Assembly (NCBI GenBank): GCA_023143375.1
Contig: JAGLHQ010000046.1
Coordinates: 1-33,187 of the forward strand
Origin: Planctomycetota bacterium
Lineage (GTDB): Bacteria; Planctomycetota; Phycisphaerae; Sedimentisphaerales; Anaerohalosphaeraceae
Direction: 5' to 3'
Length of the DNA: 33,187 nucleotides
The notes beneath the pieces were generated by a model. That model saw only the letters and a program-made list of their open reading frames with translations, had not been told where the DNA came from and searched no databases. Numbering within the stretch: position 1 is the stretch's first letter; every line of letters starts with the position of its first letter. The translations under genes were made by a program, and so were the position numbers. Below, one piece after another: positions 10,609-31,910 of this stretch.

Positions 10609-11256
10609 ATGGAAGATATTGTTATTATAGGCGCAGGGGGTTTTGCTCGTGAAGTGGCGTTTCTTATTGAGGAGATAAATAAGGACAAATTAACTTATAA
10701 TCTATTGGGTTTTGTAGACAAGACCTCTGATTCAATCGGTCAGGCTGTTGGGAAACACAAAATAATAGGTGACGATGAATGGTTAATCGACAAAAAGATA
10801 TGTGCTGTTTTGGGTACGGGCATCCCGCGGATTAATTCTCGGATAATTACTAAGTTCGGCGGACTAAGTAATATAAAGTTTCCAAATATTATTCACCCCG
10901 ATACTATTTGGGATAAAGATAAAATCAAAATGCGAAGAGGGAATATCATCTGTGCCGGGAATATTTTTACAACGGACATCGAGATAGGATCTTTTAATGT
11001 TTTTAATCTAAGCTCGACTTATGGGCATGATGTACGGATACAGGATGCTTCGGTTTTTAATCCTGGCTCAAATATTTCAGGAGCCGTAACTATCGGAACG
11101 GGATGTTTGATCGGAACCGGAGCCAATATCCTATCGCATATTTCTATTGGAGATGGGGCAACTGTCGGTGCCGGAGCCGTTGTAGTCAAAGATGTCGATG
11201 AAAATTGTGTCGTTGTTGGGGTTCCGGCTAAGCCCATGAAGCCTAAAAAGGGATGA
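10609..11256 (+). CDS. NeuD/PglD-family sugar acetyltransferase (candidate to supply LegH-type activity)
   Basis: N-terminal Rossmann-like IVIIGAGGFAREVAFLIEEIN; hexapeptide C-terminus with GHDVRI (putative catalytic His), IGTGANILSHISIGDGATVGAGAVVVKDVDENCVVVGVPAKPMK. Confidence 0.85.
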   Translation: MEDIVIIGAGGFAREVAFLIEEINKDKLTYNLLGFVDKTSDSIGQAVGKHKIIGDDEWLIDKKICAVLGTGIPRINSRIITKFGGLSNIKFPNIIHPDTIWDKDKIKMRRGNIICAGNIFTTDIEIGSFNVFNLSSTYGHDVRIQDASVFNPGSNISGAVTIGTGCLIGTGANILSHISIGDGATVGAGAVVVKDVDENCVVVGVPAKPMKPKKG

Positions 11257-12376: not shown

Positions 12377-12527
12377 AGTCATAGTCTCAAGGCGGTTTAA
12401 GCGATATCAAAAAAGATTTGCAAAATAAGTAAAATGGATTAAACTGAATGAATCTAAGCTCAGATTTTTTTGGTGCTCAAAAGGGCTCTCAAAAACCATG
12501 CAAAGTCTTTAAATGGAGGTTTGTATA

Positions 12528-13505
12528 ATGAAAGTTTTTGTAACAGGTGCAGGAGGCTTTATTGGTTCGCATCTTGTTGAGACGCTTGTCGAACGTGGAT
12601 ATGAAGTAAAGGCCTCTATTAAATATAATTCCAAAAACAGCTGGGGATGGCTCGAACAGATACAGGGTAAAGATAAAGTCGAGGTTGTTTCCGGCGATAT
12701 CCGCGATTATGATTTTGTGTCGGATTCGATAAAGGGGTGCAAAGGCGTTTTCCATCTGGCGGCCCTTATCGGTATCCCTTATTCATACGTTTCGCCTCTT
12801 GCTTATATTCAAACAAATATCGTCGGGACTTACAACATCCTTCAAGCTTCTAAAGAGCATGAGTTGGAAAATATCCTTATTACATCTACGAGTGAAACTT
12901 ATGGCACCGCGCAGTATGTTCCTATTGACGAGGATCATCCGAAAGTTGGTCAGTCGCCTTATTCTGCCACTAAGATATCCGCCGATCAGTTAGCTGTTAG
13001 CTATAATAAGTCATTTGGGTTACCGGTAAAAATCGTCAGACCCTTTAATACTTACGGTCCTCGCCAATCAGCCAGAGCGATCATTCCGACGATCATCACA
13101 CAGCTTTTGGCCGGGCAAAAGGAAATAAAGCTTGGCGAATTGTCCCCCACCCGGGACTTGCTGTTTGTAAAGGACACTGCCAACGGTTTTGTGGAAATAG
13201 CCGAGTCATCCGGGACCGTCGGAGAAGCAATCAACATAGCGACACAAAGTGAAATATCGATGGGCGATCTGGCCCAAAAATTAGTCAATATGATCAACCC
13301 AGAAGCGGTAGTGGTCAAAGATGCCGAACGGGTACGTCCTAAAAACAGCGAGGTTGAAAGATTGTTCGGTAAAAACGAGAAGATACAGAAACTAACTAAC
13401 TGGCGACAGCAATATGACATCGAAAGAGGTCTTAAGGAAACTGTCGACTGGTTTAGGAACGACGAAAATCTGCGGTTATATAAGCCGGATATTTATAATG
13501 TGTAG
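12528..13505 (+). CDS. legB: NAD-dependent sugar 4,6-dehydratase, LegB-like
   Basis: MKVFVTGAGGFIGSHLVETLVERGYEVKASIKYNSKNSWGWLE, SETYGTAQYVPIDEDHPKVGQSPYSATKISADQLA, RPFNTYGPRQSARAIIPTIITQLL. ATG 12528 with upstream GGAGGT. Confidence 0.88.
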   Translation: MKVFVTGAGGFIGSHLVETLVERGYEVKASIKYNSKNSWGWLEQIQGKDKVEVVSGDIRDYDFVSDSIKGCKGVFHLAALIGIPYSYVSPLAYIQTNIVGTYNILQASKEHELENILITSTSETYGTAQYVPIDEDHPKVGQSPYSATKISADQLAVSYNKSFGLPVKIVRPFNTYGPRQSARAIIPTIITQLLAGQKEIKLGELSPTRDLLFVKDTANGFVEIAESSGTVGEAINIATQSEISMGDLAQKLVNMINPEAVVVKDAERVRPKNSEVERLFGKNEKIQKLTNWRQQYDIERGLKETVDWFRNDENLRLYKPDIYNV

Positions 13506-14610
13506 AAATATTTATTTGGATGCTCCTAACGTCGGGCAGGCAGAAAAGGAACTGCTAAGCAAAGCAATAGATTCGACTTTTGTATCTACTGTCGGGCCAT
13601 TCGTTCCGGAATTCGAGCAAAGGTTGGCTCGTTATCTTGGAACGGAAGGAGCAGTCTCTACCCAAAGCGGAACCGCAGCGTTGCACGTTGCTCTTTATGA
13701 GCTGGGCATCGGCGAAGGTGACGAAGTAATCGTCCCGGCTCTTACGTTTATAGCTACGGTCAACCCCGTACTCTACGTTGGAGCAAAGCCGGTTTTTGTA
13801 GATTCGGATATTAATACGTGGAACGTTGACCCTGAAGATATTGAAAGACGCATCACGAAAAAGACTAAGGCTATAATACCGGTACATCTTTTCGGTAACC
13901 CTTGCGATATGGATGCGATCATGGATATTGCCCGCAGGCACGATCTATATGTTATTGAAGACGCAACGGAAAGTCTTGGAGCCCGGTATAAAGGAAGCAG
14001 GACAGGGGCGCTTGGAGATTATGGTTGTTTAAGTTTCAACGGTAATAAAGTTATCACTACCGGCGGCGGCGGAATGGTGGTAAGCAATGACAAAGATAGA
14101 TTAAAGCATGCCAGGTTTCTTGCAAACCAGGCAAGAGACGAGTCCAGAGGCTATTTCCATCCGGAGGTAGGTTTTAATTACAGGATGACAAACATAGAAG
14201 CGGCTATCGGACTTGCTCAAATAGAAAAGCTCGACGGTTTTCTGGAGATGAAAAAAACTTTCAATAAGATATACAAAGATGAATTGAGCGATTTCGGGTT
14301 TATTTCTTTCCAGAAAGAACACGAAGGCGCAGAAAGCTGTTGGTGGCTGACTTGTATTGTTTTTGACAATGAAACAGACATACCGGAGATGCAGGAAAAA
14401 TTGAAGGACCAGGGGGTCCCTACTCGAAGGATATTTGTACCTGCGACGGATTTCCCGCCATATAAAGATCACAAGGAAGGCAAACTTGAAAATTCTTTTT
14501 CCATATACGAAAGAGGGTTATGTTTGCCGAGCTCGACATTGAATACCGAAGATGACGTGCATTATGTTTGTGAAAAAATTAAAAAGCTTGTTAGCAGAAA
14601 CCGATCATGA
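13498..14610 (+). CDS. legC: DegT/DnrJ-family PLP aminotransferase, LegC-like
   Basis: TQSGTAALHVALYELGIGEGDEVIVPALTFIATVNPV, VHLFGNPCDMDAIMDIARRHDLYVIEDATESLGARYKG, CLSFNGNKVITTGGGGMVV. ATG 13498 overlaps the legB stop. Confidence 0.88.
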   Translation: MCRNIYLDAPNVGQAEKELLSKAIDSTFVSTVGPFVPEFEQRLARYLGTEGAVSTQSGTAALHVALYELGIGEGDEVIVPALTFIATVNPVLYVGAKPVFVDSDINTWNVDPEDIERRITKKTKAIIPVHLFGNPCDMDAIMDIARRHDLYVIEDATESLGARYKGSRTGALGDYGCLSFNGNKVITTGGGGMVVSNDKDRLKHARFLANQARDESRGYFHPEVGFNYRMTNIEAAIGLAQIEKLDGFLEMKKTFNKIYKDELSDFGFISFQKEHEGAESCWWLTCIVFDNETDIPEMQEKLKDQGVPTRRIFVPATDFPPYKDHKEGKLENSFSIYERGLCLPSSTLNTEDDVHYVCEKIKKLVSRNRS

Positions 14611-14803: not shown

Positions 14804-15808
14804 ATGAGCAAGGTGTTTATAATAGCTGAAGCGGGAGTTAACCATAACGGCAGTGTCAAGCTGGCTTTGGAGCTTATCGCCGTCGCTGCAGATGCCGGTG
14901 CCGACGCGGTTAAGTTTCAGACTTTTAAAGCCGAAAACGTGATAAGCGCACATGCTCCAAAGGCAGCTTATCAGGAAGAAACAACGGGCAAAGAAGAATC
15001 GCAACTCGAAATGGTCAAAAGGCTGGAGCTTGGTCCTGCCGAACACAAAGAACTGATCAAGCATTGTCAGGCAAAAGATATAATGTTCATGTCAGCACCA
15101 TTTGACTTAGAGAGCATAGACTTGCTTTGCGAGCTTGGCCTTGAGATAATGAAGATCCCTTCCGGGGAGATAACAAATTTGCCTTATCTAAGAAAAATAG
15201 GCGGATTAGGCACGCGTATTATTATGTCTACAGGGATGGCAGATCTAAAAGAAATAGAAGATGCGCTTAATATTTTGCTTCAATCCGGAACCGATAGAAC
15301 CGATATAACAATATTGCACTGTAACACAGAATACCCTTCGCCTTTTGAGGACGTGAATTTGTCGGCTATGCTTACTATCAAAGATGCGATGAATGTAGAC
15401 GTTGGCTATTCTGACCATACGCTTGGTATAGAAGTGCCGATCGCAGCGGCGGCATTGGGAGCTAAGGTGATAGAAAAGCATTTTACTCTCGATAAAAGTA
15501 TGGCCGGTCCCGACCACAAGGCGTCTTTGGAGCCGGGTGAGCTTAAAGCCATGGTGCAGGCAATAAGAAATGTTGAAAAAATCTCTGGAGACGGAGTAAA
15601 GAAACCAAGCGCGAGCGAATTAGATAATAAACAGATCGCAAGAAAAAGCATTGTTGCTAAGAAAAACATCAAGGAAGGCGAAACTTTTAGCCCGGACAAC
15701 ATTACGGCTAAACGGCCCGGTTCGGGAATCAGCCCGATGGAGTGGGATAATGTAATAGGAAAGATCGCAAAAAGAGATTTCCAGGAAGACGAGATAGTAG
15801 AAGTATGA
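14804..15808 (+). CDS. legI: Nonulosonic (sialic/legionaminic) acid synthase with C-terminal SAF domain
   Basis: FIIAEAGVNHNGSVKLALELIAVAADAGADAVKFQTFKAENV, EIMKIPSGEITNLPYL, MSTGMADLKEIEDAL, HCNTEYPSPFEDVNL, GYSDHTLG, EKHFTLDKSMAGPDHKASLEP, AKRPGSGISPMEW. Confidence 0.93.
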   Translation: MSKVFIIAEAGVNHNGSVKLALELIAVAADAGADAVKFQTFKAENVISAHAPKAAYQEETTGKEESQLEMVKRLELGPAEHKELIKHCQAKDIMFMSAPFDLESIDLLCELGLEIMKIPSGEITNLPYLRKIGGLGTRIIMSTGMADLKEIEDALNILLQSGTDRTDITILHCNTEYPSPFEDVNLSAMLTIKDAMNVDVGYSDHTLGIEVPIAAAALGAKVIEKHFTLDKSMAGPDHKASLEPGELKAMVQAIRNVEKISGDGVKKPSASELDNKQIARKSIVAKKNIKEGETFSPDNITAKRPGSGISPMEWDNVIGKIAKRDFQEDEIVEV

Positions 15809-16992
15809 AAAAGAAGATTTGTGTTATTACAGGTTCCAGAGCAGAGTATGGCCTTTTAAGGCCTTTGCTCGAACAGATCGGCGCCGATCCTGACTTGACA
15901 CTGCAGCTTATGGTAACAGGAACGCACCTTTCCCAGGAATACGGTTTGACGTACAAGGAAATAGAAAATGACGGGTTTGATATCGATGAAAAAATCGATA
16001 TTGGGCTCTGTTCGGATACACCTGTCGGGATCGCGGAGTCTATGTCGCTGGCTATCAGCGGATTTGCTAAGGGGTATGAATCCCTTCGGCCGGACGTTGT
16101 TGTGGTTCTGGGCGACAGATTCGAAATATTTACGGCTGTCGCAGCGGCGGCGATAAGCAGAATTCCTATTGCGCATCTGCACGGGGGAGAGAGCACCGAG
16201 GGAGTTGTTGATGAAGCATTCCGCCATTCCATTACAAAAATGAGTCACCTTCATTTTACTTCCGCGCAGGAGTATCGTAAGAGGGTTATTCAATTAGGAG
16301 AAGCCCCTGACAGAGTCTTTAATGTCGGTGCTATCGGGCTGGATAATATTAGAGAACTGAAGTTATTATCCAAAGAAGATTTGGAAAAAGAACTGAATTA
16401 TAAATTCGGTAAGAAAAACCTGCTAGTAACGTTTCATCCGGTTACACTTGAGGACAATACGTCGCAAGAGCAATTTCAAATATTGCTTGATACATTGAGC
16501 GGCATGGAAGAAACGAATATTATTTTTACCAAGTCAAACGCAGATGCCGGCGGAAGAGCCATCAATAAAATGATCGATGACTATGTATCATGTAATCCGG
16601 AAACCACTATATGCTTTACCTCTATGGGCCAGCTTCGTTATTTATCGACGTTACAGTTTGTAGATGCAATGGTAGGAAACTCATCAAGCGGCATCGCAGA
16701 GGCACCGAGCTTTAAGGTGGGAACAATTAATATTGGGGATAGACAAAAGGGACGGATCAAGGTAGAAAGTATAATCGACTGTCAACCCTTAAAAGAAGAT
16801 CTCAAAAAAGCGTTCGACAGGTTGTATTCCCAGGGATTTCAGAAAAGCCTTAAGGGTATTATAAATCCCTATGACCAGGGCGGTACTGCAAAGAAAATAA
16901 AAGAAACTCTAAAGAGCTATGACTTGTGCAATATACTAAAGAAAAGCTTCTTTGACGTTAAATTTGATATAGGAGATATAAATGTCACTTAA
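15805..16992 (+). CDS. legG: Hydrolysing NDP-GlcNAc-type 2-epimerase, NeuC/LegG-like
   Basis: KKKICVITGSRAEYGLLRPLLEQI, LQLMVTGTHLSQEYG, VVVLGDRFEIFTAVAAAAISRIPIAHLHGGESTEGVVDEAFRHSITKMSHLHF, MVGNSSSGIAEAPSFKVGTINIGDRQKGR. Confidence 0.93.
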   Translation: MKKKICVITGSRAEYGLLRPLLEQIGADPDLTLQLMVTGTHLSQEYGLTYKEIENDGFDIDEKIDIGLCSDTPVGIAESMSLAISGFAKGYESLRPDVVVVLGDRFEIFTAVAAAAISRIPIAHLHGGESTEGVVDEAFRHSITKMSHLHFTSAQEYRKRVIQLGEAPDRVFNVGAIGLDNIRELKLLSKEDLEKELNYKFGKKNLLVTFHPVTLEDNTSQEQFQILLDTLSGMEETNIIFTKSNADAGGRAINKMIDDYVSCNPETTICFTSMGQLRYLSTLQFVDAMVGNSSSGIAEAPSFKVGTINIGDRQKGRIKVESIIDCQPLKEDLKKAFDRLYSQGFQKSLKGIINPYDQGGTAKKIKETLKSYDLCNILKKSFFDVKFDIGDINVT

Positions 16993-18061
16993 AGACATTC
17001 TGATCTATGAGTCAGATTCCACAAAAGAAGCCTTAAAAAGGCTCGACAAAACCGCTGTAAAGGCATTGTTAGTTGTAGATCAGAGCAAGAAACTACTGGG
17101 GGCTATTAGTGACGGAGACATCAGGCGTCACATATTAAAAGGCGAAAGCCTGGAAGGCGACATCGGTGAAATATATAACAGAACTCCCGTTTGCATACAA
17201 AAAGACAAGTTCTCAATGGAGCGGGCTAAAGAACTGTTCCTTAAGTATAAAATCGAATTGATACCTGTAATAGATGGCGAACACCGGGTGATAGAGTATG
17301 TAACGTGGGATCAGTCTTTCCCCAGAACGGAACAGCCGCCGTATAAGAAAAGCCAAATAAGCGTTCCTGTTGTTATTATGGCTGGCGGAAAAGGCTCACG
17401 CATGGAACCGTTCACTAAGATACTCCCAAAGCCGTTGATACCGATCGGCGAAAAAACTATTATTGAAATGATCATAGATGAGTTTAAGCAGCAGGGTGCA
17501 GAAAAATTTTATCTGACACTAAACCATAAAAGCGAGATGATAAAAGCTTACTTTGAGGGCATAGAAAAAGACTATGAAGTAAACTTTATTAAGGAAAAAG
17601 ATTTTTATGGAACAGCAGGCAGTTTGAAACTGATCGAAAAGAAGATCAGCGAGACTTTTATTGTTTCAAATTGCGATATCATTGTTAAAGCAAATTTTGA
17701 AAATGTACTTGCCTTGCATGAAGAACAAAACGCCTCATTGACGATCATCTCTTCTGTTCAGCATTATGAAATTCCGTATGGGGTAATAAATTTTAAAGAT
17801 GGCGGAGAAGTAGTGAATATTCAGGAAAAACCGGAGTATACTTTCACGATCAATACCGGCGTATATATCCTAAATAAAGATGTCCTGGAATTTATACCGG
17901 CCGACACACATATGGATATGACCGATCTGATCAAGATACTGACCGAAAAGGGCAAAAAAGTTCTTACATATCCCGTCAATGAAAAAGAATATTTAGATAT
18001 TGGCCAATGGAAAGAATACAAAAAAGTAACACAACATTTTCACGAACAGGAAACAAACTGA
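16982..18061 (+). CDS. CBS-domain nucleotidyltransferase, PtmE/LegX-like
   Basis: N-terminal CBS pair (ALLVVDQSKKLLGAISDGDIRRHIL) followed by VPVVIMAGGKGSRMEPFTKILPKPLIPIGEKTIIEMIIDEF; overlaps the neuC-like 3' end. Confidence 0.88.
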   Translation: MSLKDILIYESDSTKEALKRLDKTAVKALLVVDQSKKLLGAISDGDIRRHILKGESLEGDIGEIYNRTPVCIQKDKFSMERAKELFLKYKIELIPVIDGEHRVIEYVTWDQSFPRTEQPPYKKSQISVPVVIMAGGKGSRMEPFTKILPKPLIPIGEKTIIEMIIDEFKQQGAEKFYLTLNHKSEMIKAYFEGIEKDYEVNFIKEKDFYGTAGSLKLIEKKISETFIVSNCDIIVKANFENVLALHEEQNASLTIISSVQHYEIPYGVINFKDGGEVVNIQEKPEYTFTINTGVYILNKDVLEFIPADTHMDMTDLIKILTEKGKKVLTYPVNEKEYLDIGQWKEYKKVTQHFHEQETN

Positions 18062-18085
18062 TTTGATAAAGGCAGGATCGTTTTT

Positions 18086-19162
18086 ATGAAACAAAAACAG
18101 AAACCATATATTATCGGGGAAACCGCATATAATCACGAGGGAGATATCGACTATCTTTACAGGATGATAGACGAGATAGCCGAAGTCGGCTTAAATGCGG
18201 TTAAATTCCATTTGTTATTGAACCCTGAAAGCTACATGCAGAAAACACATCCCGCGATCCCCGAGATCAAAAAATGGATCTTCGACGAAAACCAGTGGGA
18301 TGCAATTATCGATCATTCAAATAAAAAAGGGCTGGACGTAATCGCTTTATGCGATGATGTCGAGAGCCTGGAGTATATTAACAAAAGCAAATTGGATGTG
18401 TATGCAGTCGAGTTGCATGCCACAGGATTAAACGATTATTTTCTGCTTGAGGCGGCTGTTGAATTTGGCGAAACGATCATTTTAGGGGTCGGCGGTTCGA
18501 CAATTGGCGAGATCGAGTATGCAATAGAATTTTTAAAAACCAGGCAGAAGGACGATATTGTTTTAATATATGGCTTCCAGGATTACCCGACTGATTATGC
18601 AAAGATTAATTTGTCTAAGATGCTTAAGATAGCCGCTTTATTCGATCTGCCCGTAGGATATGCGGACCACACGGCATTTAACGATCCAAACAATGAGGTC
18701 GTTAGTGTAATGGCAGCTATGATGGGCTTTAACATTTTGGAAAAACATTACACCCCAGACTTTGGCGCCAAGCGCATAGACCACCACGCCGCAGTGGGAA
18801 AAGAACAGATGATCAAAATAAAGGGCTTGATGGAACTGGCATTGACGGTCCATGGCAGCGGCGGGATGAAAATGTCAAAGGCAGAGTTGGAATACGGTAA
18901 TACCGGGCCCATGAAAAAAGCTATTGTTGCCAGGAAAGACATCAAAAAAGGACAAAAGCTTTCGCCGGACGATCTTTGGTTTAAGAGAACCGAGCAGCAA
19001 AGCCCGATCAGGCAAAGTCAGTTTTTGCAACTGATCGGTCTTGAGGTGATCAGAGATATAGACGAAGACGAAATAATCGATTACTCCAATGTTCGTTACA
19101 ACTTCCAAAAAGCCGATATAGAAAGCTTTACGCATTTAGATAATACCGGAGATTCCCAATGA
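18086..19162 (+). CDS. Divergent NeuB/SpsE-family synthase with SAF domain (second paralog)
   Basis: IIGETAYNHEGDIDYLYRMIDEIAEVGLNAVKFHLL, GYADHTAF, ILEKHYTPDFGAKRIDHHAAVG, SAF-like KAIVARKDIKKGQKLSPDDLWFKRTEQQSPI; canonical PSGE and STGM motifs are replaced. Confidence 0.85.
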   Translation: MKQKQKPYIIGETAYNHEGDIDYLYRMIDEIAEVGLNAVKFHLLLNPESYMQKTHPAIPEIKKWIFDENQWDAIIDHSNKKGLDVIALCDDVESLEYINKSKLDVYAVELHATGLNDYFLLEAAVEFGETIILGVGGSTIGEIEYAIEFLKTRQKDDIVLIYGFQDYPTDYAKINLSKMLKIAALFDLPVGYADHTAFNDPNNEVVSVMAAMMGFNILEKHYTPDFGAKRIDHHAAVGKEQMIKIKGLMELALTVHGSGGMKMSKAELEYGNTGPMKKAIVARKDIKKGQKLSPDDLWFKRTEQQSPIRQSQFLQLIGLEVIRDIDEDEIIDYSNVRYNFQKADIESFTHLDNTGDSQ

Positions 19163-19959
19163 AAATAGGCTTCCTGATCACTGCAAGATTGAAATCTTCC
19201 AGGCTGCCATTTAAGATCGTTAAGGATTTAAATGGCAAAACGGTTGTTGAAAGAATAATAGAACGGGCAAAACAAATACATGATATTGCGGAGATCGTAC
19301 TCTGTACTTCGCCAAATCCTCAGGACAGTCCTTTAATAGAGATAGCAGATAAAAACGACATTTCATGGTTTTTAGGCGATGAGGACGATGTCCTGAAGAG
19401 GCTTTTAGATGCGGCAAAATTGCATGAGTTGGATTGTTTTTTGGGCATCACAGCCGATAATCCTTTGTTCTCAATTGATTATTCAAATAGGATAATTGAA
19501 CAAATAAAAACGGGAGGTCACGATTTTATAAAAGTCCACGGCCTGCCTCTTGGCGCCGCTACTTATGGAATGAACGTCAAGGCGCTCGAGACTGTCTGCG
19601 AAATTAAAACGGTTGTCGATACGGAAATCTGGGGATACCTTATTAATCGGCCGGAGCTTTTCGACATCGAAACGATCGAGGTGGAAAAGAAACTTGATCG
19701 GCCTGAATTAAGATTTACATTAGATTACCCGCAAGACTATGAATTTATTAAAAATATTTATGAAAACATTCCGTTTGAAAAACCGATCGGCCTTGGCAGC
19801 GTAATGGATTATCTGAATGCTAATCCCGAGGTTATCAAGATAAATCAAATGTGTGTTCAAAAAGATCTGGACGAAAAAACAAAAGATATGATAAACAGCT
19901 TTTATGTTGAAAAGGCCGACGAGATTAAAAAAATAAAAGCGAGAATCTACAAAAAATGA
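19159..19959 (+). CDS. SpsF-like cytidylyltransferase-family protein
   Basis: MKIGFLITARLKSSRLPFKIVKDLNGKTVVERIIERAK, WFLGDEDDVLKRLLDAAKLHELDCFLGITADNPLF; CTP_transf_3-type N-terminus, coupled to the NeuB-like gene. Confidence 0.82.
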   Translation: MKIGFLITARLKSSRLPFKIVKDLNGKTVVERIIERAKQIHDIAEIVLCTSPNPQDSPLIEIADKNDISWFLGDEDDVLKRLLDAAKLHELDCFLGITADNPLFSIDYSNRIIEQIKTGGHDFIKVHGLPLGAATYGMNVKALETVCEIKTVVDTEIWGYLINRPELFDIETIEVEKKLDRPELRFTLDYPQDYEFIKNIYENIPFEKPIGLGSVMDYLNANPEVIKINQMCVQKDLDEKTKDMINSFYVEKADEIKKIKARIYKK

Positions 19960-21218
19960 AACTAAGAATAGTTTTTATTCCTACCCACTGGTATTTATCC
20001 AAGCCTGTCTTTTTTAGTTTGGCCAGAGAGTGTAAAGACAAACATCACACGATTTATTTCGACACAAACGATAGGGTGTTTTCCAAATATAAAGGGAAAA
20101 ATATAAAAGAAGGGGCACTTAAATATTTTGACGAATATATAGAAATTGACGCGTCACCTTTTGTAGAAAAATACAAAGAAATAGAGGGATCGTCTGCTTT
20201 AAGCAAAAGACGCAGAACTATAAGGAAAATGTGCTGCTTTATAGCACAAAAACCCAGGCTGGAAAAACAATTGGCCGAAATCGCGCCGGACGTTATGATA
20301 ACAACAGGCGATGCCAGCGGGTATATAAATAAATACTGCAACATCTGGGCGGAGAAAAATGAAATACCATATATAGTAATTCAGCCGTCGTTCATAAGAA
20401 TGGAAAAAGTAAAGAACCCGTGGAAAGAACGTATAGGTTATCTGCTTTTTAATATATTATTACGCATGCCGTTCTGCCGAAAACAGACGGTTTTTGGCAA
20501 TGAGCGTCCGGGCAATCATCTTTTTGTATGGGGGGACTTTTATAAAAACTTTTACAAGGGTCTCCAGATCGAGAAAAATACTTTCGTTACGGGCAACCCG
20601 GCTTTTGACCAGATACTGAAAATGGCAGCCAATACCGAGCGCCCGAAAGACCTGGGCATCCAGATACCCGAAGGAAAAAAGGTGGTAATGATTTGCACCC
20701 AGCCGATGGAGCCGCTGCTCAGCGAAAGAGCATGCGGGTTGGTGAATGATTTCTACAGATGTGCCATCGAGGAAAATCAGGACCTGTTTTTTATCGTTAA
20801 GATACATCCAAGAGAAAATATAGAAAAATATAACACCATCTTAGAGGGTATAGACACAAATAATTACGTTATTACAAAGGACGTCAACTTGTATGATGTG
20901 TTTAAAGCGACGGATTTGCAGATATCGGTGTCATCATATTCTTCTTTTGAAGCGGTAGTTTTCGGAATCCCGATAGTTATTATCAATCCGGAAAACCTTG
21001 TAACGCTTCCGGATCAGTTTAATAACGAGATCGAGATGAAAGCAACTACGAAGGATGAATTAAAGAAAAATCTCTTAAAAGGTCTTACAAATGAATATAT
21101 TGAGGAGTTTAAAGTAAAAAGAGAGCAATATCTGAAACCAAGACTGGGTTACCTTGACGGCAATAGCGGAAGAAGAATAATAGAAAAAATAGAGGAAATT
21201 ATAGGGAATAGGAAATGA
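19956..21218 (+). CDS. GT-B-like glycosyltransferase (capsule/CDP-glycerophosphotransferase-like)
   Basis: IPYIVIQPSFIRMEKVKNPW, GKKVVMICTQPMEPLLSERACGLVNDFYRCAIEENQDLFFIVKIHPREN, DLQISVSSYSSFEAVVFGIPIVIINPENL. Confidence 0.65.
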   Translation: MKLRIVFIPTHWYLSKPVFFSLARECKDKHHTIYFDTNDRVFSKYKGKNIKEGALKYFDEYIEIDASPFVEKYKEIEGSSALSKRRRTIRKMCCFIAQKPRLEKQLAEIAPDVMITTGDASGYINKYCNIWAEKNEIPYIVIQPSFIRMEKVKNPWKERIGYLLFNILLRMPFCRKQTVFGNERPGNHLFVWGDFYKNFYKGLQIEKNTFVTGNPAFDQILKMAANTERPKDLGIQIPEGKKVVMICTQPMEPLLSERACGLVNDFYRCAIEENQDLFFIVKIHPRENIEKYNTILEGIDTNNYVITKDVNLYDVFKATDLQISVSSYSSFEAVVFGIPIVIINPENLVTLPDQFNNEIEMKATTKDELKKNLLKGLTNEYIEEFKVKREQYLKPRLGYLDGNSGRRIIEKIEEIIGNRK

Positions 21219-22661: not shown

Positions 22662-22799
22662 CAAGACCGGATGTCTTGACGGCAATGGTAACCGAAGAAC
22701 ATAGAAAAATTGAGGAAATGCTGAAAAAGCCTTGAGGTAAGGGTGCCAGGCTCAGGCAAAGACCAGATTAAAGAAAAACGTACGGAAAAGAGAAGTCAA

Positions 22800-23675
22800 A
22801 TGAAAAAACTATTAGTTACGGGGTACATGAGATCAGGAACAACACTCTTGGCTAATTTCTTGAATTATCAGAAAGAATGTTTGGTTTATAGAGATTTTTT
22901 ACGACCTATTTTTATAACTTCTCGCCATTTAGGAATAACATCTTTTTTGTCTACATTAACCGATCAGCAAAAGAATGTATTGCTTTCGGAACTCAAAGCA
23001 GAATCGGGAATTCTTGGAAGCAAAATGATGGACGGTCTGGAAAAGGACTTTTCCAATCTAAAAGAATTATACGATAGAGCACTCTATGCCGTAAAAGGAA
23101 ATAATGATATCGAAATTGTAGGCTCTAAAGTGACGATGGTTGGAGACTGGCTCTTAAAAACCGTAGAAGAAACAGATGTTTACGTAATATATATTTATCG
23201 AGATGCCAGAGATGTTTTGTTGTCAGCAAAGAATAGATTTGCAAAATACAATCTTATGAAAGTAATGATAGATTTACAAAGAGACTTGGAAGTCGCATTA
23301 AATATCAAATCCGAAAGACTGATTTTGATTAAATATGAGGATCTGGTTTTGGACACAGATTCAGTTGCAAAACAACTGTCCGATTTTTTAGGTGTTAATA
23401 TTGTTAAAGACATTTCTACCGCAAAAGACAGGGAAATGGACTGGGTGGACAACTCCGCCTTCCATGATCTTGATAGGGTATTTGATCCGAAAGCATGTTA
23501 TAGATGGAAAAAAGATCAAAAGAGCAAAGAAGTGAAATCTTGCGAAATACTAATGGCCGGGTTTATTGACAGATTAGGCTATAATTGTATGGGCATGGAG
23601 GCATTTAGTGTATGGGATAAATTGTGTGCATATAGAGATTATTATGTTCAGAAATTTAAAAATGCTGCCAAATGA
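22800..23675 (+). CDS. Sulfotransferase-family protein
   Basis: KKLLVTGYMRSGTTLLANFLNYQKECLVYRDFLRP (5'-PSB-like loop), VYVIYIYRDARDVLLSAKNRF, ERLILIKYEDLVLDTDSVAKQLSDFLGV. ATG 22800 preferred over 22743. Confidence 0.85.
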   Translation: MKKLLVTGYMRSGTTLLANFLNYQKECLVYRDFLRPIFITSRHLGITSFLSTLTDQQKNVLLSELKAESGILGSKMMDGLEKDFSNLKELYDRALYAVKGNNDIEIVGSKVTMVGDWLLKTVEETDVYVIYIYRDARDVLLSAKNRFAKYNLMKVMIDLQRDLEVALNIKSERLILIKYEDLVLDTDSVAKQLSDFLGVNIVKDISTAKDREMDWVDNSAFHDLDRVFDPKACYRWKKDQKSKEVKSCEILMAGFIDRLGYNCMGMEAFSVWDKLCAYRDYYVQKFKNAAK

Positions 23676-23708: not shown

Positions 23709-25154
23709 ATGATGGATAAACAGGTATTAAAACAAATTAAGAACTCCGATCTTTTTGAAACACTGAGGCACTCGAAGAATTACTTCTCTGCCAATGTTGC
23801 AATGAGGGCGATGGCGTTTATTTCTATCCCGATATTTACCCGTCTTCTTACAGAGGCTGATTACGGAGTTGTTGCGGTTTTTAGAAGCTATGTAGGCATC
23901 ATGGCCGTTCTTCTGTCCCTGAACTCATATTCCGCAGTGGGAAGATATTATTATGAAAAAACGGATGATTTTAACGAATTCCTTGGAACAACTCTGGTCT
24001 TTGTTGGGCTGATCTTCTGCGTTACTATCCCCGCATTTTTTATATTTTACGAGCAAATATCAAACGTAATACAACTTCCCGGGTTATTGCCCGCGTTCTT
24101 GTTATTTGCCGCTTTATTTGCCATTATAAATAGTGTTTATCAGCAGGTATTGATCCCTCAAAAGCGAAGCAAAGAAGCGGCTGTAATAAATGTAACAAAA
24201 GGCTACGCCGTCCTCATAGTAGCTATTTTGCTGACGTGGATATTGAAAGAAAACCGCTATTTAGGCCGGGTGTGGTCACTCCTGCTGATAGGCTGCGGGT
24301 TTTCGATCTATGTCCTGATAAAGCTTTCTAAATATGTGAAATTGTGTTTCAGGATCGAGCATATTAAATACATAGCTTCCTACTCCTTCCCACTTATTCC
24401 GTACGCCTTAAGCGGCGTTATTCTGGCACAATTTGACAGGATCATGATCAACAATACGATCGACACAAAATCCGCAGGCCTGTACAGCCTGGGGTACAAT
24501 ATCGCCATGCTTATACTTATTGTAATAACTTCGACTCGAACAGCCCTGATGCCGGATTTCTTCAAGTTCCTGGATAACAAAGAATATTCAAGGATAGAAG
24601 ATCTGTCAAAAAAGATCTTTTCGATCATAACTGTCGCTGCTTTGGGACTGATTTTTTTCGCCAAAGAAATAGTCATACTTTTGGCAGACAAGAAATTCCA
24701 TCCGGGCCTTAGCGTAGTTCCAGTCGTTGTAGTAGGATATCTTTTTTATGGAATGGCTACTGTCTATAACCGATATATCGCGTATGCCAAAAAGACTATT
24801 TATCTTTCTGTAATAGTGCTTGCCGCAGGCATTTTAAACATTGTTTTGAATCTTATATTTATACCGAAGTATGGTTATATTGCCGCTGCATATACTACTG
24901 TTGCTTCTTATTTTGTCATGTTTTTGCTGACATGGATCGTTTCTAAGGTATTTATAGAACAGAAAACTGTGCGGCTGTGGACGATTTGGAAACCGACGTT
25001 ATTGATGTTCGCTTTTATAGGATTAGTGTACTTAGTGGAAGCCTCTGGCGTTAACGCTGTTTGGTTCTTCTTGATAAAGGCGGCAATGCTGGCGACATTT
25101 TGCTGTATTGTCTTTCGCAAACAACTCAGAACTGTTTTAAGATTACGAAAATAA
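23709..25154 (+). CDS. Oligosaccharide flippase / polysaccharide biosynthesis membrane protein (Wzx-like)
   Basis: AMRAMAFISIPIFTRLLTEADYGVVAVFRSYVGIMAVLLSLN, multiple TM helices, FDRIMINNTIDTKSAGLYSLGYNIAML. Confidence 0.9.
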   Translation: MMDKQVLKQIKNSDLFETLRHSKNYFSANVAMRAMAFISIPIFTRLLTEADYGVVAVFRSYVGIMAVLLSLNSYSAVGRYYYEKTDDFNEFLGTTLVFVGLIFCVTIPAFFIFYEQISNVIQLPGLLPAFLLFAALFAIINSVYQQVLIPQKRSKEAAVINVTKGYAVLIVAILLTWILKENRYLGRVWSLLLIGCGFSIYVLIKLSKYVKLCFRIEHIKYIASYSFPLIPYALSGVILAQFDRIMINNTIDTKSAGLYSLGYNIAMLILIVITSTRTALMPDFFKFLDNKEYSRIEDLSKKIFSIITVAALGLIFFAKEIVILLADKKFHPGLSVVPVVVVGYLFYGMATVYNRYIAYAKKTIYLSVIVLAAGILNIVLNLIFIPKYGYIAAAYTTVASYFVMFLLTWIVSKVFIEQKTVRLWTIWKPTLLMFAFIGLVYLVEASGVNAVWFFLIKAAMLATFCCIVFRKQLRTVLRLRK

Positions 25155-25162
25155 AGCCCGAC

Positions 25163-26860
25163 TTAAACCGCAAGAATTTGTTTGATAACTTCTGTTGCCC
25201 TTTGTGTTGCATTACCGTCGATCTTGCAAAGATGCCGCTGAATATACGAGATTCGCTTTTCTATGAGTTCTGCGTCATTTCCCAGGCATTTTGAAATGGC
25301 CCGCCCAAGATCTTCGCTCTCATAAACTCCGATAGCCGCACCCTCATCGACATAACCAATAAGGTCTGCCTCGCCGCTCAGGTTTAAAATGATAACAGGT
25401 TTATCCAGTGCCAGTGCCTCGGACGCAGTCGTCGAGAACTTTGTGATCGTTACATCGCAGGCATAAAGTAAAGCCAATGTGTCTGCGGTTTTAGAAGCAA
25501 GAATGAATTTTTCGTTAGGCAGATTTAAGCAACTGCGAATCAATTGGCCATGCTCCTCTTCTTCTCTTGGATGTTGTTTGATAATCAAAACAGTGTTATC
25601 AAGTTTGTCCATTGTGTCACGAACAGCACGGAGATTTTTTTTGTTTTCTTCGTCGGATAGCACAAAGCATTGGGTAGTCCACAAGACAACCTTTTTGTTC
25701 TTATCTATGCCGTACTCAGCCAATATATCTTCCCTGCTGCAATGTTCTTTTATCGTGTTCAATACGTCATAGCCGGGCTGACCTGTTACAATTACACTTT
25801 CTTGCGAGTATGCGCTGACATGGGTAAGGACATCTTTGTAATGCTGCCCAAACACAAGCGTTTTATCCGGTATCGGACAGAAAGGAGCACCCGCGCTGCC
25901 GTCCGGCGAGATCTCATCTTTTGCATAAATATAACCGTTGGAGAATTTGGAAATATTGCCGTGTTGTATAGCCACAGTTGGGATGCCCTTCTTTTTACTG
26001 GCGATAAGCAAGGATCGCTCAAAGATGCCATATTCGTTTACCAAAAGCACCATGTCCGGCTGTTCCTTTTCAAGAAGTTCTTTTGACATCTCAATACGTT
26101 TAACAACATAGGGCAGAAGAACCATGAAATAAAACTTAAGCTTTCTGTAGATCAAGTCGAAGTCATCATCGTTTTTAAAACTGCATAAGCTGTGAAACTG
26201 GCGGTCAGTCGAAAGCGCCTTCCATACTTTGTTAAAGTGCCGGGCTGCCTGAAGTTCTTTCTTAGCGATGTTTACCGACCAATAAAGATTGAACGGCCGA
26301 TACGGAATGTCCCAGTTCTTTACTCTTTCGATCAGGATGCCAAGGCTTTTAATTGCGGACTTGAAAGGATAAATATATTTGACTAAAGGATAGGTGCCTA
26401 CAAGAGCCATGCCTTCTTTGTTTTGTAAATTCTCAAGCACCGAGTCTAAGAAAATATCGGTCTTTTTAATTTTACCCGTCTGGTAATCTTTAACTTCTCG
26501 CCACGTTATATCTCTGGTAGTAAATAAGATCTTCTTCTTATCGTCTTTGGGTTCCGGTTTTTTATTCGAAAGCAGGATCGACTTGACAACCACTTTCCTG
26601 CCCAGATCGAAACAAAAATTTAAGCCCCCAAAAACGCATGTCGGCAGCTTTGATACCCACCATTGAAATCGCAGGTTTTTGGGCATCTTGCTGCCCGGAT
26701 TTTCCGGAAGGGTCAATAAAAACATAAGAAAATCGAAATGAGCAAACCACCACAGCGACAAACCGTCATACTCCGTCAATTCCCGAAAGGTCTTTCCGCA
26801 GTCAAGTTTTGTAGTAGTGAGCCTGCGGGCAAAAGCTGATATCTTTTCATATTTACTCAT
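25163..26860 (-). CDS. GT-B-like glycosyltransferase (capsule/CDP-glycerophosphotransferase-like), 565 aa
   Basis: GIPTVAIQHGNISKFSNGYIYA, KTLVFGQHYKDVLTH, VIVTGQPGYDVL, VLIIKQHPREEEEHGQLI, DVTITKFSTTASEALALDKPVIILNLSGEADLI. Confidence 0.75.
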   Translation of the reverse strand: MSKYEKISAFARRLTTTKLDCGKTFRELTEYDGLSLWWFAHFDFLMFLLTLPENPGSKMPKNLRFQWWVSKLPTCVFGGLNFCFDLGRKVVVKSILLSNKKPEPKDDKKKILFTTRDITWREVKDYQTGKIKKTDIFLDSVLENLQNKEGMALVGTYPLVKYIYPFKSAIKSLGILIERVKNWDIPYRPFNLYWSVNIAKKELQAARHFNKVWKALSTDRQFHSLCSFKNDDDFDLIYRKLKFYFMVLLPYVVKRIEMSKELLEKEQPDMVLLVNEYGIFERSLLIASKKKGIPTVAIQHGNISKFSNGYIYAKDEISPDGSAGAPFCPIPDKTLVFGQHYKDVLTHVSAYSQESVIVTGQPGYDVLNTIKEHCSREDILAEYGIDKNKKVVLWTTQCFVLSDEENKKNLRAVRDTMDKLDNTVLIIKQHPREEEEHGQLIRSCLNLPNEKFILASKTADTLALLYACDVTITKFSTTASEALALDKPVIILNLSGEADLIGYVDEGAAIGVYESEDLGRAISKCLGNDAELIEKRISYIQRHLCKIDGNATQRATEVIKQILAV

Positions 26861-28228: not shown

Positions 28229-30067
28229 ATGGCAAGACGTGGAAGAAAACGAAAAAAAACAACTCTTCTCCAAAAACCGGTCGAGATTGATGTTGACTAT
28301 CAAAAAGCTCAACATAGATTCGAGATAATCGTTCTTGTGATTCTCCTTGCGTTTGGTGTGTACAAATCTATCAGGCTTTTCGGGGCCCTTCCTGTACCAA
28401 ATCCGGATTATTCAGGTTTCGTAAGGACAGGACAAGAATTGCTTGCTTTTAATATCCCATCTACCTTTAAGAGGGCTCCTGTTCTTGGAATATTGATTGT
28501 CACGCTTAGCAATTTTGTCGGTGGAGCGCATCCAATGCTCACAGCTGGCTGGTTGCTTAACGCGATTATGGGCGTTTTGAATACCGTTTTGCTATGGCAG
28601 ATCGCAAAAAAACTACTCGGAAACGCAGGGATATGGTTTGCCGTAGTGGCAGTGCTGAATCCATGGGTCATGCGATACCAGACTTCTCCAATTGCCGAAA
28701 CCTCTATGATATTTTTCACACTTGCAACCTTTTACTTTATTTTTAGACATTCTAAGTGGGCCTATCTCTTTGCTTCTATTGCATCGATGGTACGATACGA
28801 ATGTACAGTGCTTATTTTTATCGCATTCCTGATGGACATGGTGACCGGAAAAACAAAAAAACAACGGTGCAAGGCATTCTTATACGCAGCACTTGCTTCA
28901 CTGCCCTTTCTGCTATGGATGTTTGGAACATATTATTACAAAGACACGAAAACCGTACATTATATTGGACACTACAAAGTAAACGCAAGTGGAACCAGAA
29001 CAAGAACCGGCTTTCCGAAATATTTCCTCCTGCTCTGGAATACGATTTATGCACCCCTTTTTCAGTTACCGGCTGCAATAAAAGCAACATTTACTCCTCC
29101 GGCTACCCAACAACAGGCAGTTGCCATTGGCACTGCGATAACCAGCCTGCATCTTTACAGCAAAATAATAGCCGGCGCAAGTGCGGCATTGGCAATCATA
29201 TATTCTATTATAAAACGAAACTGGTATTTGCTGTCATTAGCGGTCTTTATGTTCTTTTACATAATGGCGCACTCTATGCGAATTAGCAGCCATACACGTT
29301 ACTGTGTCCCGGCGGTCTGGCTCGCACTGCTTATATCATGGTACGGATTTTACGTTTTATGGAAACTTTTCGATAAGGACAGCGGAAAGCTACGCATCAT
29401 TACCTTGATTTCACTTACAACTATCATGATTCCGGGACTTATTTACTTTTTTAAAATAGCACCAAGCATACCGAAAACAGCAAGAGCAGGCATAGCAGCT
29501 TACCCCGTAGTCTACGCAGCGATGATCACGATAGGCTTAATATTGTTGGCGGGATGCTGGCTGTTCAAATTCAAATTCTTTGCTCGATACTTTGTGCTTA
29601 GCATCTTAACATGCGCTATGATAGGATCGCAACATTTTATGGTTGCAAAAGCTATAGGACGCGGATCTTATAACTATGAATTCAAAATGCTTGCGGACTG
29701 GTATGCGGAAAACGCGAAGCCGGGAGAAAAAATGGGATGCACATGGTCGCCTCTATTAAAAATATTGCTCGACGGGCACGCAGATAACATAATAGAATTA
29801 AAAACAATGGCAAGCCCTACATTCGAGGGTTTCGTGGAAAATTGTTATGAAAATAATCTTACCTATGTCGCCTGTACCGCCAGAGGAAGCGCAAAAGTCA
29901 AAAAGGGCCTTTTGCCGGCACTTCGTAGACTTAGTGCTGAAAAAGACTATCCGCCCTTTAGATTTATCGAACGTTTTCGGGTTGGAACAGGAAGAAGCAG
30001 GTGGGTCAGTGTCTTCGAACTGATGCCGCGACAGGAACAGCAAGATCAAGATGAACTGAAAAAGTAA
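28229..30067 (+). CDS. GT-C family multi-TM glycosyltransferase (GT39/ArnT-like), paralog 1
   Basis: Polytopic; PNPDYSGFVRTGQELLAFNIPSTFKRAPVLGIL, HPMLTAGWLLNAIMG, ETSMIFFTLATFYFI, MVRYECTVLIF, soluble C-terminal domain. Confidence 0.75.
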   Translation: MARRGRKRKKTTLLQKPVEIDVDYQKAQHRFEIIVLVILLAFGVYKSIRLFGALPVPNPDYSGFVRTGQELLAFNIPSTFKRAPVLGILIVTLSNFVGGAHPMLTAGWLLNAIMGVLNTVLLWQIAKKLLGNAGIWFAVVAVLNPWVMRYQTSPIAETSMIFFTLATFYFIFRHSKWAYLFASIASMVRYECTVLIFIAFLMDMVTGKTKKQRCKAFLYAALASLPFLLWMFGTYYYKDTKTVHYIGHYKVNASGTRTRTGFPKYFLLLWNTIYAPLFQLPAAIKATFTPPATQQQAVAIGTAITSLHLYSKIIAGASAALAIIYSIIKRNWYLLSLAVFMFFYIMAHSMRISSHTRYCVPAVWLALLISWYGFYVLWKLFDKDSGKLRIITLISLTTIMIPGLIYFFKIAPSIPKTARAGIAAYPVVYAAMITIGLILLAGCWLFKFKFFARYFVLSILTCAMIGSQHFMVAKAIGRGSYNYEFKMLADWYAENAKPGEKMGCTWSPLLKILLDGHADNIIELKTMASPTFEGFVENCYENNLTYVACTARGSAKVKKGLLPALRRLSAEKDYPPFRFIERFRVGTGRSRWVSVFELMPRQEQQDQDELKK

Positions 30068-30101: not shown

Positions 30102-31910
30102 ATGGGATCGAGGAAGCGGAGACATAAAAACAAAAAATACGACAATATTTCGGTCAACGATATTTCAGTGAACGATGTCTCTGTTAATATCCAGAAGAGA
30201 TTCGAGCTATTTGCCATAGCAGTTCTTTTGATCTTCGGAATATATCAGTCGATACAGCTTTTCGGGTATACAAGTGTTCCAAATTCGGACTTCCCATTAT
30301 TTGTAAGAGTTGCCGAGAAGATAATTTCATTCGAGCTTCCCAGCAGTTTCAAAAGACTGCCAGGCCTTGGATTGCTGCAGATAGGTCTAAGCAAATTTAT
30401 CGGCGGAAACCACCCCGTACTCACTGCCGGCTGGTTGTTAAATGCAATAGTGCACCCTATAAGCCTGATCCTTCTCTATCTGATCGCCAGGAAATTCATA
30501 GGAAAAGCGGCATTCTGGCTCGTGATCGTTTTTGCCTTAAACCCGCAGGTGGCACTAATGCTCACTCAGCCGATGGCGGAAACAACGCTTATGTTTTTCA
30601 CTTTACTCACTTTATACCTGATACTTATAAGCTCGAAATATCGTTATCTCGTTGCATGTGCCGCAACCGTAATACGCTACGACGCCGCCGTCCTTATCGT
30701 CGCGGCAATGGCGGCAGATGTTTTCGAACGCAGAGATAAAAAAAATATACTTATCGCTCTGGCAAAAGGAGCACTGGTATTTGTTCCACTGGCGGTATGG
30801 ATCGCCTTCACAAAGATCACCTGGGAAAACTCCACAAAGGCGCATTACTTCGGACATTACATATACCGAAAGCCTATTGGACTCGGATACCTTGATCTGC
30901 TTTGGAACACTGCGATAGGAGGCCTGCTGCAGTTGCCCGCATGGATAAAGGCTATGTTTGTAGAACGACCATCGCAGGACGCTCTCAAATCGATACAGCA
31001 GGCAAACGAGATGCTTTTCGGTATAAGCAAGTTCTTAACCATGGCAGGATTCATCACCACTGCTGTTTACGCCGTGATTAAGAAAAATATTAAATTATTG
31101 CCGTGCTTCGTTTTCCTGGCTTGCAATTTAGCGGTACACATGATGCGAATGAAGAGTTCCCCGAGATATTGTTATATACTCGTGCCCATCGTCATGCTTT
31201 TGTGCTGTTATGGGTGGCAGACAATACTGAAAGCCATAAATAAAAAAATGCCCATCGCATTGTCGGCGATATTATGTGTGACCCTAATAATCATTTCGGT
31301 TGTGTGGATCTTCCGGCTTCTACCCGCCATGGATCGAGCAGCGATGCTAAGCCCCGTTTGCACCGGTTTGCTTACAGCTTCAATTATAGCGAGCATCGTC
31401 TTTGCAATAGCAGGCTTGCTCTTTAACAAAGGCAAAGGTGCCTTAGGCATCGTTACGATGACCGCCATTATGTCACTGATGATCTTTTCAAATCATTTCG
31501 AGTTGGCAAAAACTATTGGCAGCGGGAAAACCGATGCCGAGTTTAGAATGCTCGCCGAATGGTTCACAGCCAATACTGAACCCGGCGAAAAAATTGTGAC
31601 ATCGATGCCTGATATTGTTAAATTATTCGCACCGTCAAGGAAGGGAGACATCGTCCGAGTCTCTCACATCGACGGAAACAACGCTGATGAATTTGTTAAG
31701 AGTTGTTATCAAAAAGGTGTTAAATATGTTGCATGGGACTCACGCGTCGGGCTTTTACCGAAATACGTATATTATAAGAAGTGGAGGATAGACCGCATAG
31801 ATTTCATGAAAACACCACGCGACATCGGACCGTATGAGTTTGTCGAACCGCTAAAGCAGAGCAACAGGCGATATATACACGTATTCCGTTTGAAGCAACA
31901 GGTTAAATAG
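30102..31910 (+). CDS. GT-C family multi-TM glycosyltransferase (GT39/ArnT-like), paralog 2
   Basis: Aligns throughout with the preceding gene: PNSDFPLFVRVAEKIISFELPSSFKRLPGLGLL, HPVLTAGWLLNAIVH, ETTLMFFTLLTLYLI, VIRYDAAVLIV. Confidence 0.75.
   Translation: MGSRKRRHKNKKYDNISVNDISVNDVSVNIQKRFELFAIAVLLIFGIYQSIQLFGYTSVPNSDFPLFVRVAEKIISFELPSSFKRLPGLGLLQIGLSKFIGGNHPVLTAGWLLNAIVHPISLILLYLIARKFIGKAAFWLVIVFALNPQVALMLTQPMAETTLMFFTLLTLYLILISSKYRYLVACAATVIRYDAAVLIVAAMAADVFERRDKKNILIALAKGALVFVPLAVWIAFTKITWENSTKAHYFGHYIYRKPIGLGYLDLLWNTAIGGLLQLPAWIKAMFVERPSQDALKSIQQANEMLFGISKFLTMAGFITTAVYAVIKKNIKLLPCFVFLACNLAVHMMRMKSSPRYCYILVPIVMLLCCYGWQTILKAINKKMPIALSAILCVTLIIISVVWIFRLLPAMDRAAMLSPVCTGLLTASIIASIVFAIAGLLFNKGKGALGIVTMTAIMSLMIFSNHFELAKTIGSGKTDAEFRMLAEWFTANTEPGEKIVTSMPDIVKLFAPSRKGDIVRVSHIDGNNADEFVKSCYQKGVKYVAWDSRVGLLPKYVYYKKWRIDRIDFMKTPRDIGPYEFVEPLKQSNRRYIHVFRLKQQVK

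Follow-up and report, generated by a model that had tools for sequence, protein, structure and literature searches.

Gene content of the locus

The analysed stretch of DNA, called the window in the following, comprises 33,187 nucleotides from a Planctomycetota bacterium and carries an operon for legionaminic acid (Leg) on its forward strand. The gene order starts with the NAD-dependent 4,6-dehydratase LegB (12513..13505; TIGR04180, 475.5 bits) and the aminotransferase LegC (13414..14610; TIGR04181, 427.8 bits), followed by the canonical NeuB-family synthase LegI (14804..15808), the LegG/NeuC-like hydrolysing 2-epimerase (15805..16992; TIGR03568, 482.5 bits) and a PtmE-like CBS and nucleotidyltransferase protein (16982..18061), which was assigned by a profile match. 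A NeuD/PglD-type acetyltransferase at 10609..11256 on the same strand (TIGR03570, 167.6 bits) is a candidate for LegH. After PtmE, three further forward-strand genes encode a divergent protein with a NeuB TIM barrel and a SAF domain, here named NeuB2 (18086..19162, 358 aa), an SpsF-like cytidylyltransferase (19159..19959, 266 aa) and a GT-B-like glycosyltransferase (19956..21218, 420 aa). All three open reading frames start with ATG and are connected by 4-nt ATGA overlaps at 19159-19162 and 19956-19959. These reading frames had been described in an earlier note on this DNA, and their coordinates, overlaps and quoted motifs are all present in the sequence.

The SpsF-like protein reached 60.1 bits against PF02348. 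Its CTP_transf_3 domain contains the N-terminal RLPxK motif and the acidic residues, and the motifs ARxxSxRLPxK, ADNP and LDxxxDY are kept. The glycosyltransferase showed 25.1 bits against PF04464 (cut-off 22.1), and its C-terminal half matched the C-terminal part of the BFO_1060 glycosyltransferase family with 82 bits (cut-off 200). Together with the KIHPRE motif, these similarities would be compatible with the use of a CMP-sugar donor. The structure model of this protein, with a pLDDT of 46.6, was too poor for use.

Further genes were observed 3' of the operon. A sulfotransferase-domain protein (22743-23675, forward strand) suggests that the glycan may be sulfated, and it is followed by a Wzx-type flippase (23709-25154, forward strand). 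The reverse strand of this cluster carries another GT-B protein of the 19956 type at 25163-26860, with 25% identity, the HPRE motif and a BFO_1060 domain of 102.5 bits. Two forward-strand reading frames of 612 and 602 aa (28229-30067 and 30102-31910) showed no match to any Pfam family; another 602 aa reading frame without Pfam match lies near the distant dyad of genome G820 described below (L080, 6553-8361).

Fold and pocket of NeuB2

In the profile search, NeuB2 matched PF03102 with 112.6 bits (E=2.8e-32) and SAF with 41.3 bits, both above the cut-off. Its scores lie below the equivalog cut-offs of NeuB_NnaB (TIGR03569; 160.9 vs 399.65) and PseI (TIGR03586; 105.6 vs 340.25), whereas LegI exceeds the former with 515 bits. 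The identity between NeuB2 and canonical synthases, LegI included, amounts to 26-29%. An AlphaFold model based on an 18-sequence alignment (pLDDT 87) comprises a TIM barrel and an antifreeze-like domain. The superposition on NmNeuB that the earlier note had proposed gave a TM of 0.81 to 1xuu, so that the fold is kept, and a TM of 0.77-0.82 was determined for CjPseI. The closest solved structure is the synthase of Leptospira borgpetersenii (6ncs), which, unlike NeuB2, keeps the canonical pocket residues over the aligned part. NeuB2 is a genuine NeuB homologue with TIM barrel and SAF domain.

For the pocket, NeuB2 and its orthologue from Aerophobetes (see below) were aligned with 24 canonical synthases, NmNeuB, CjPseI, BsSpsE and LegI among them, and the residues were numbered according to NmNeuB. 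At thirteen mapped pocket positions, at least 90% of the canonical synthases carry the same residue; each canonical synthase has 12 or 13 of these residues, and LegI has all 13. NeuB2 keeps E25, K53, Y186, H215, E234, H236 and D247, while six of the 13 positions are altered (Q55H, K129E, S132A, S154G, C182G and S213A). R314, which is present in 20 of the 24 canonical synthases, is kept as well, and further pocket changes are T110L, F112D, G131H, E134G and N184Q. This combination is absent from all 47 canonical rows.

At aa 109-114 (ELHATG, 18410..18427), the canonical K-I-x-S-x-E of Nm positions 129-134 is replaced by K129E, G131H, S132A and E134G. The STGM loop is replaced at aa 134-139 (GVGGST, 18485..18502; S154G, T155V) and the HCxN motif at aa 162-165 (YGFQ, 18569..18580; C182G, N184Q), where Y162, G163 and Q165 are common to the three dyad NeuBs discussed below. 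The stretch of aa 193-203 (ADHTAFNDPNN, 18662..18694) comprises S213A, the conserved metal ligand H215 and, just after this histidine, a five-residue insertion (aa 199-203) which is likewise common to the three; all four stretches are on the forward strand. Misalignment was ruled out as the source of K129E by the agreement of HMMER, two MAFFT alignments and the predicted strand that precedes the motif.

In the NmNeuB structure, K53, S154 and S213 serve as PEP ligands. Based on the alignment, the whole PEP-pocket set of T110, K129, S132, S154, C182 and S213 is absent from NeuB2. According to a published comparison of NeuB homologues (PMC7371886), positions 110, 129, 131, 132, 182 and 184 surround PEP, with 132, 182 and 184 being less conserved, and it is the PEP/C1 region that Neu, Leg and Pse synthases have conserved; contacts of NmNeuB are also listed in PMC6795526. 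It had been proposed in the earlier note that the residues for PEP condensation are retained and that NeuB2 differs on the substrate side only. While the metal and catalytic set is indeed kept, much of the PEP side is replaced, and since these positions are rebuilt, it appears doubtful that NeuB2 is an ordinary PEP-dependent synthase. Compared to the NeuB/LegI/PseI/SpsE synthases (PF03102 and SAF), NeuB2 shares the fold, the metal ligands, E25, K53, Y186, R314 and the SAF domain, but differs in the PEP-side residues, the insertion after the metal histidine and the scores below the TIGR03569 and TIGR03586 cut-offs.

NeuB2 and its orthologue have all 19 mapped pocket residues in common, although the two proteins share 71% identity overall (hypergeometric p about 1e-3). 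In the codon comparison of both genes, third positions have reached saturation and second positions retain 85% identity, which indicates purifying selection on NeuB2. Taken together, the identical pocket and the purifying selection suggest that the new pocket is maintained, and judging from these comparisons the motif replacements are not due to chance. Another non-canonical pocket was observed in a NeuB subgroup (L097, L098) with R314 and S132 to Ala and F112 to Glu.

Recurrence of the NeuB2-SpsF dyad

One orthologue of NeuB2 was found in the genome collection, located on contig JAGGXI010000093.1 of a Candidatus Aerophobetes MAG. The gene order there is LegC, NeuD-type acetyltransferase, LegG, LegI, PtmE, NeuB2 and SpsF, with the contig end falling inside SpsF. 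Compared to the window, NeuB2 and SpsF both showed an identity of 71%, whereas the other genes showed 62% (LegC), 54% (LegI), 44% (PtmE), 39% (LegG), 33% (acetyltransferase) and 25% (LegB position). This difference sets NeuB2 and SpsF apart as a separate unit. An assembly or frameshift artefact is ruled out by the occurrence of the same NeuB2-SpsF order on an independent contig from another phylum.

A more distant dyad was observed in G820, a genome of the same phylum as the window, where NeuBa (29% identity to NeuB2) and SpsF (38%) are joined by an ATGA overlap and followed by a canonical NeuB and then a CBS-LegC fusion; a separate NeuB-NeuA pair adjoins this dyad. The pocket of NeuBa comprises K53Q, T110C, C182G, N184Q, Y186F and S213Q, while K129, H215, E234, H236, D247 and R314 are kept. 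E25, H215, E234, H236, D247 and R314 are retained in all three dyad NeuBs. Since the dyad occurs in three genomes of two phyla, each time adjoined by a canonical NeuB, it is real and recurrent. The stretch around NeuBa (L079) contains three NeuB genes; the fusion of a PtmE-like CBS region to a LegC-type aminotransferase lies at 18279-19742 (forward strand), two genes after the NeuB trailing NeuBa-SpsF, and a xylose-isomerase-like TIM barrel (17401-18243) is situated between that NeuB and the fusion.

In the tree, the three dyad NeuBs form one clade with a support of 100/98. They have ten rare residues in common, compared to six in the best canonical row. In the SpsF tree, their three partners are found together at 88/86. 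The stem of NeuB2 is very long, with 2.5 changes per column, and the grouping of NeuB2 with NeuBa could be helped by long-branch attraction. An origin of NeuB2 by duplication of LegI was not rejected (AU p=0.24). As the earlier note had supposed, NeuB2 is deeply divergent, and the tree places it in no tight group with a characterised NeuB, LegI, PseI or SpsE.

Tandems of NeuB and SpsF were also found outside the dyad clade, with pockets that are fully canonical (G145, G249) or nearly so (G107, G840). An SpsF beside a NeuB is common, and the altered pocket is the rare part. A co-occurring triad including the glycosyltransferase had been suggested as well. The NeuB2-SpsF part of this triad does recur, whereas searches of 161 genomes of the order, of plasmids and of the DNA available for the other dyad loci, of which the Aerophobetes contig ends within SpsF, revealed no homologue of the glycosyltransferase. 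The conserved module therefore comprises NeuB2 and SpsF only, and the glycosyltransferase should not be counted in it.

At E<=1e-35, no further members of NeuB2 were found in 294 genomes of the phylum and 397 genomes of the class, by which inheritance of the gene within the lineage is ruled out. Scans of viral contigs with NeuB2, with NeuB2 plus NeuBa and with the glycosyltransferase revealed no relatives, and the plasmid and phage matches to NeuB2 did not exceed about 30% identity; three of these (L021, L022, L023) have canonical pockets. A plasmid of Methylomagnum ishizawai (L106, 4014-10459) carries NeuB, an SpsF-like gene, split transketolase-like genes, a class III aminotransferase, an SDR and a HAD-IIIA hydrolase, which looks like a pathway for a different 2-keto acid sugar.

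Possible roles of SpsF and NeuB2

In G009, a genome of the same family as the window, NeuA/LegF directly follows PtmE, the place which is taken by NeuB2-SpsF in the window. The window genome (85.6% complete) yielded only two PF02348 proteins, KdsB and the SpsF of the dyad. The Aerophobetes genome showed the SpsF orthologue, an SpsF-PseG fusion, a weak match of 24.7 bits and IspD, which was recognised by eye from its sequence and gene context; the fusion (L062, 6787-8586, reverse strand, genome G345) adjoins a NeuB gene. NeuA/LegF was seen among the PF02348 matches of neither genome, both being draft MAGs with a full leg operon in which the gene could be unassembled. Together with the position of LegF in G009, this points to SpsF as probably a CMP-nonulosonate synthetase standing in for LegF. 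An SpsF-like domain in place of NeuA has been proposed before (PMC7371886), and in Bacillus subtilis spsF is required for the transfer of Leg to the spore surface but dispensable for Leg synthesis (PMC7439481).

The earlier note had interpreted the genes as a separate line for making, activating and transferring a second sugar. This part is not supported, as the operon showed no second precursor pathway, and apart from KdsB the genome yielded no CTP_transf_3 protein other than SpsF; more simply, SpsF would activate the operon's own legionaminate. The underlying view of NeuB2 as a second PEP-dependent synthase, whose own acceptor yields a second 2-keto acid sugar for SpsF, is possible but appears rather doubtful to us. 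Retention of the fold, the metal site, K53, E25 and R314 would fit this view, and a re-engineered pocket could possibly still use PEP. Since the NeuB directly before SpsF is usually fully canonical elsewhere (nearly so in G107 and G840), the tandem can also be read as a synthase/activator layout, and the separate NeuB-NeuA pair beside the dyad of G820 points in the same direction. However, T110L, K129E, S132A, S154G, C182G and S213A remove contacts which are invariant or nearly invariant in the 24 canonical synthases, and for two of the three genomes this view would mean that SpsF handles two sugars or that Leg stays unactivated. That NeuB2 is just a duplicate of LegI with a slightly different acceptor and no new chemistry is highly improbable: although the common operon and fold and the AU test agree with such an origin, the identity of 26-29% to LegI and pocket changes which never occur together in 47 canonical rows argue against it.

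A loss of catalysis has to be considered as well. NeuB2 could be a non-catalytic subunit that binds LegI, SpsF or a sugar for regulation or channelling, leaving the chemistry of the dyad to SpsF alone. The two branches have lost different pocket residues, K129 on the side of NeuB2 and K53 on that of NeuBa, as would be expected from relaxed catalytic constraint, and the dyad NeuB is always located beside a canonical NeuB and usually overlaps SpsF. Nonetheless, the metal ligands H215 and H236 as well as E25, E234, D247 and R314 persist in all three dyad NeuBs, and the identity of all mapped pocket residues in both orthologues suggests a working site, which makes this explanation unlikely. Somewhat further down in our estimate stands a neofunctionalised enzyme with the NeuB fold that would not use PEP at all, carrying out another reaction on the finished nonulosonate and passing the product to SpsF. 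Catalysis would then be carried by the metal centre and the new residues E109, H111, D90 and Q165, for example as a metal-dependent C4 epimerisation by retro-aldol/aldol reaction or as a condensation with another enol donor.

Altogether, the explanation preferred here, with a probability of roughly 0.4, is that NeuB2 is a metal-dependent enzyme with altered chemistry which precedes SpsF in the Leg pathway. An altered function is favoured since the residues surrounding PEP were lost, while the metal ligands and the sugar-side arginine R314 stayed within a preserved NeuB fold. NeuB2 and SpsF would form a two-gene module in the LegF position of the operon: LegI would produce a nonulosonate with PEP, and NeuB2 may act on this product, or on another sugar of the pathway, via the retained metal site. 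The reaction would be a remodelling step before activation, other than the standard PEP condensation. SpsF would convert the product to a CMP-sugar, replacing the missing LegF, and a glycosyltransferase, possibly the one encoded at 19956, would transfer the activated sugar.

Related arrangements are known from other bacteria. B. subtilis (PMC7439481) also combines a synthase-fold protein, SpsE, with an SpsF cytidylyltransferase in one Leg pathway, but SpsE has all 13 invariant pocket residues, and the operon of the window adds a separate canonical LegI. The nonulosonate cluster of Leptospira interrogans (PMC3438082), with two synthases and two CMP-synthetases, likewise contains a Leg pathway and a second divergent synthase, which in contrast to NeuB2 carries a fused C-terminal phosphatase domain. 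The nab clusters of Vibrio B9-25K2 (PMC7371886) share the use of SpsF instead of NeuA, while an altered NeuB was not reported for them.

In the literature, the PEP side of NeuB-type synthases is treated as conserved, and NeuB sequences are used in genome surveys to predict the sugar product. A recurrent clade in which the PEP side is replaced while the metal site is intact would show that a NeuB match is not always a PEP-dependent synthase. Furthermore, the dyad would explain leg operons without LegF, and LegI, NeuB2 and SpsF would provide a defined trio of proteins for testing a possibly new step of nonulosonate biosynthesis.
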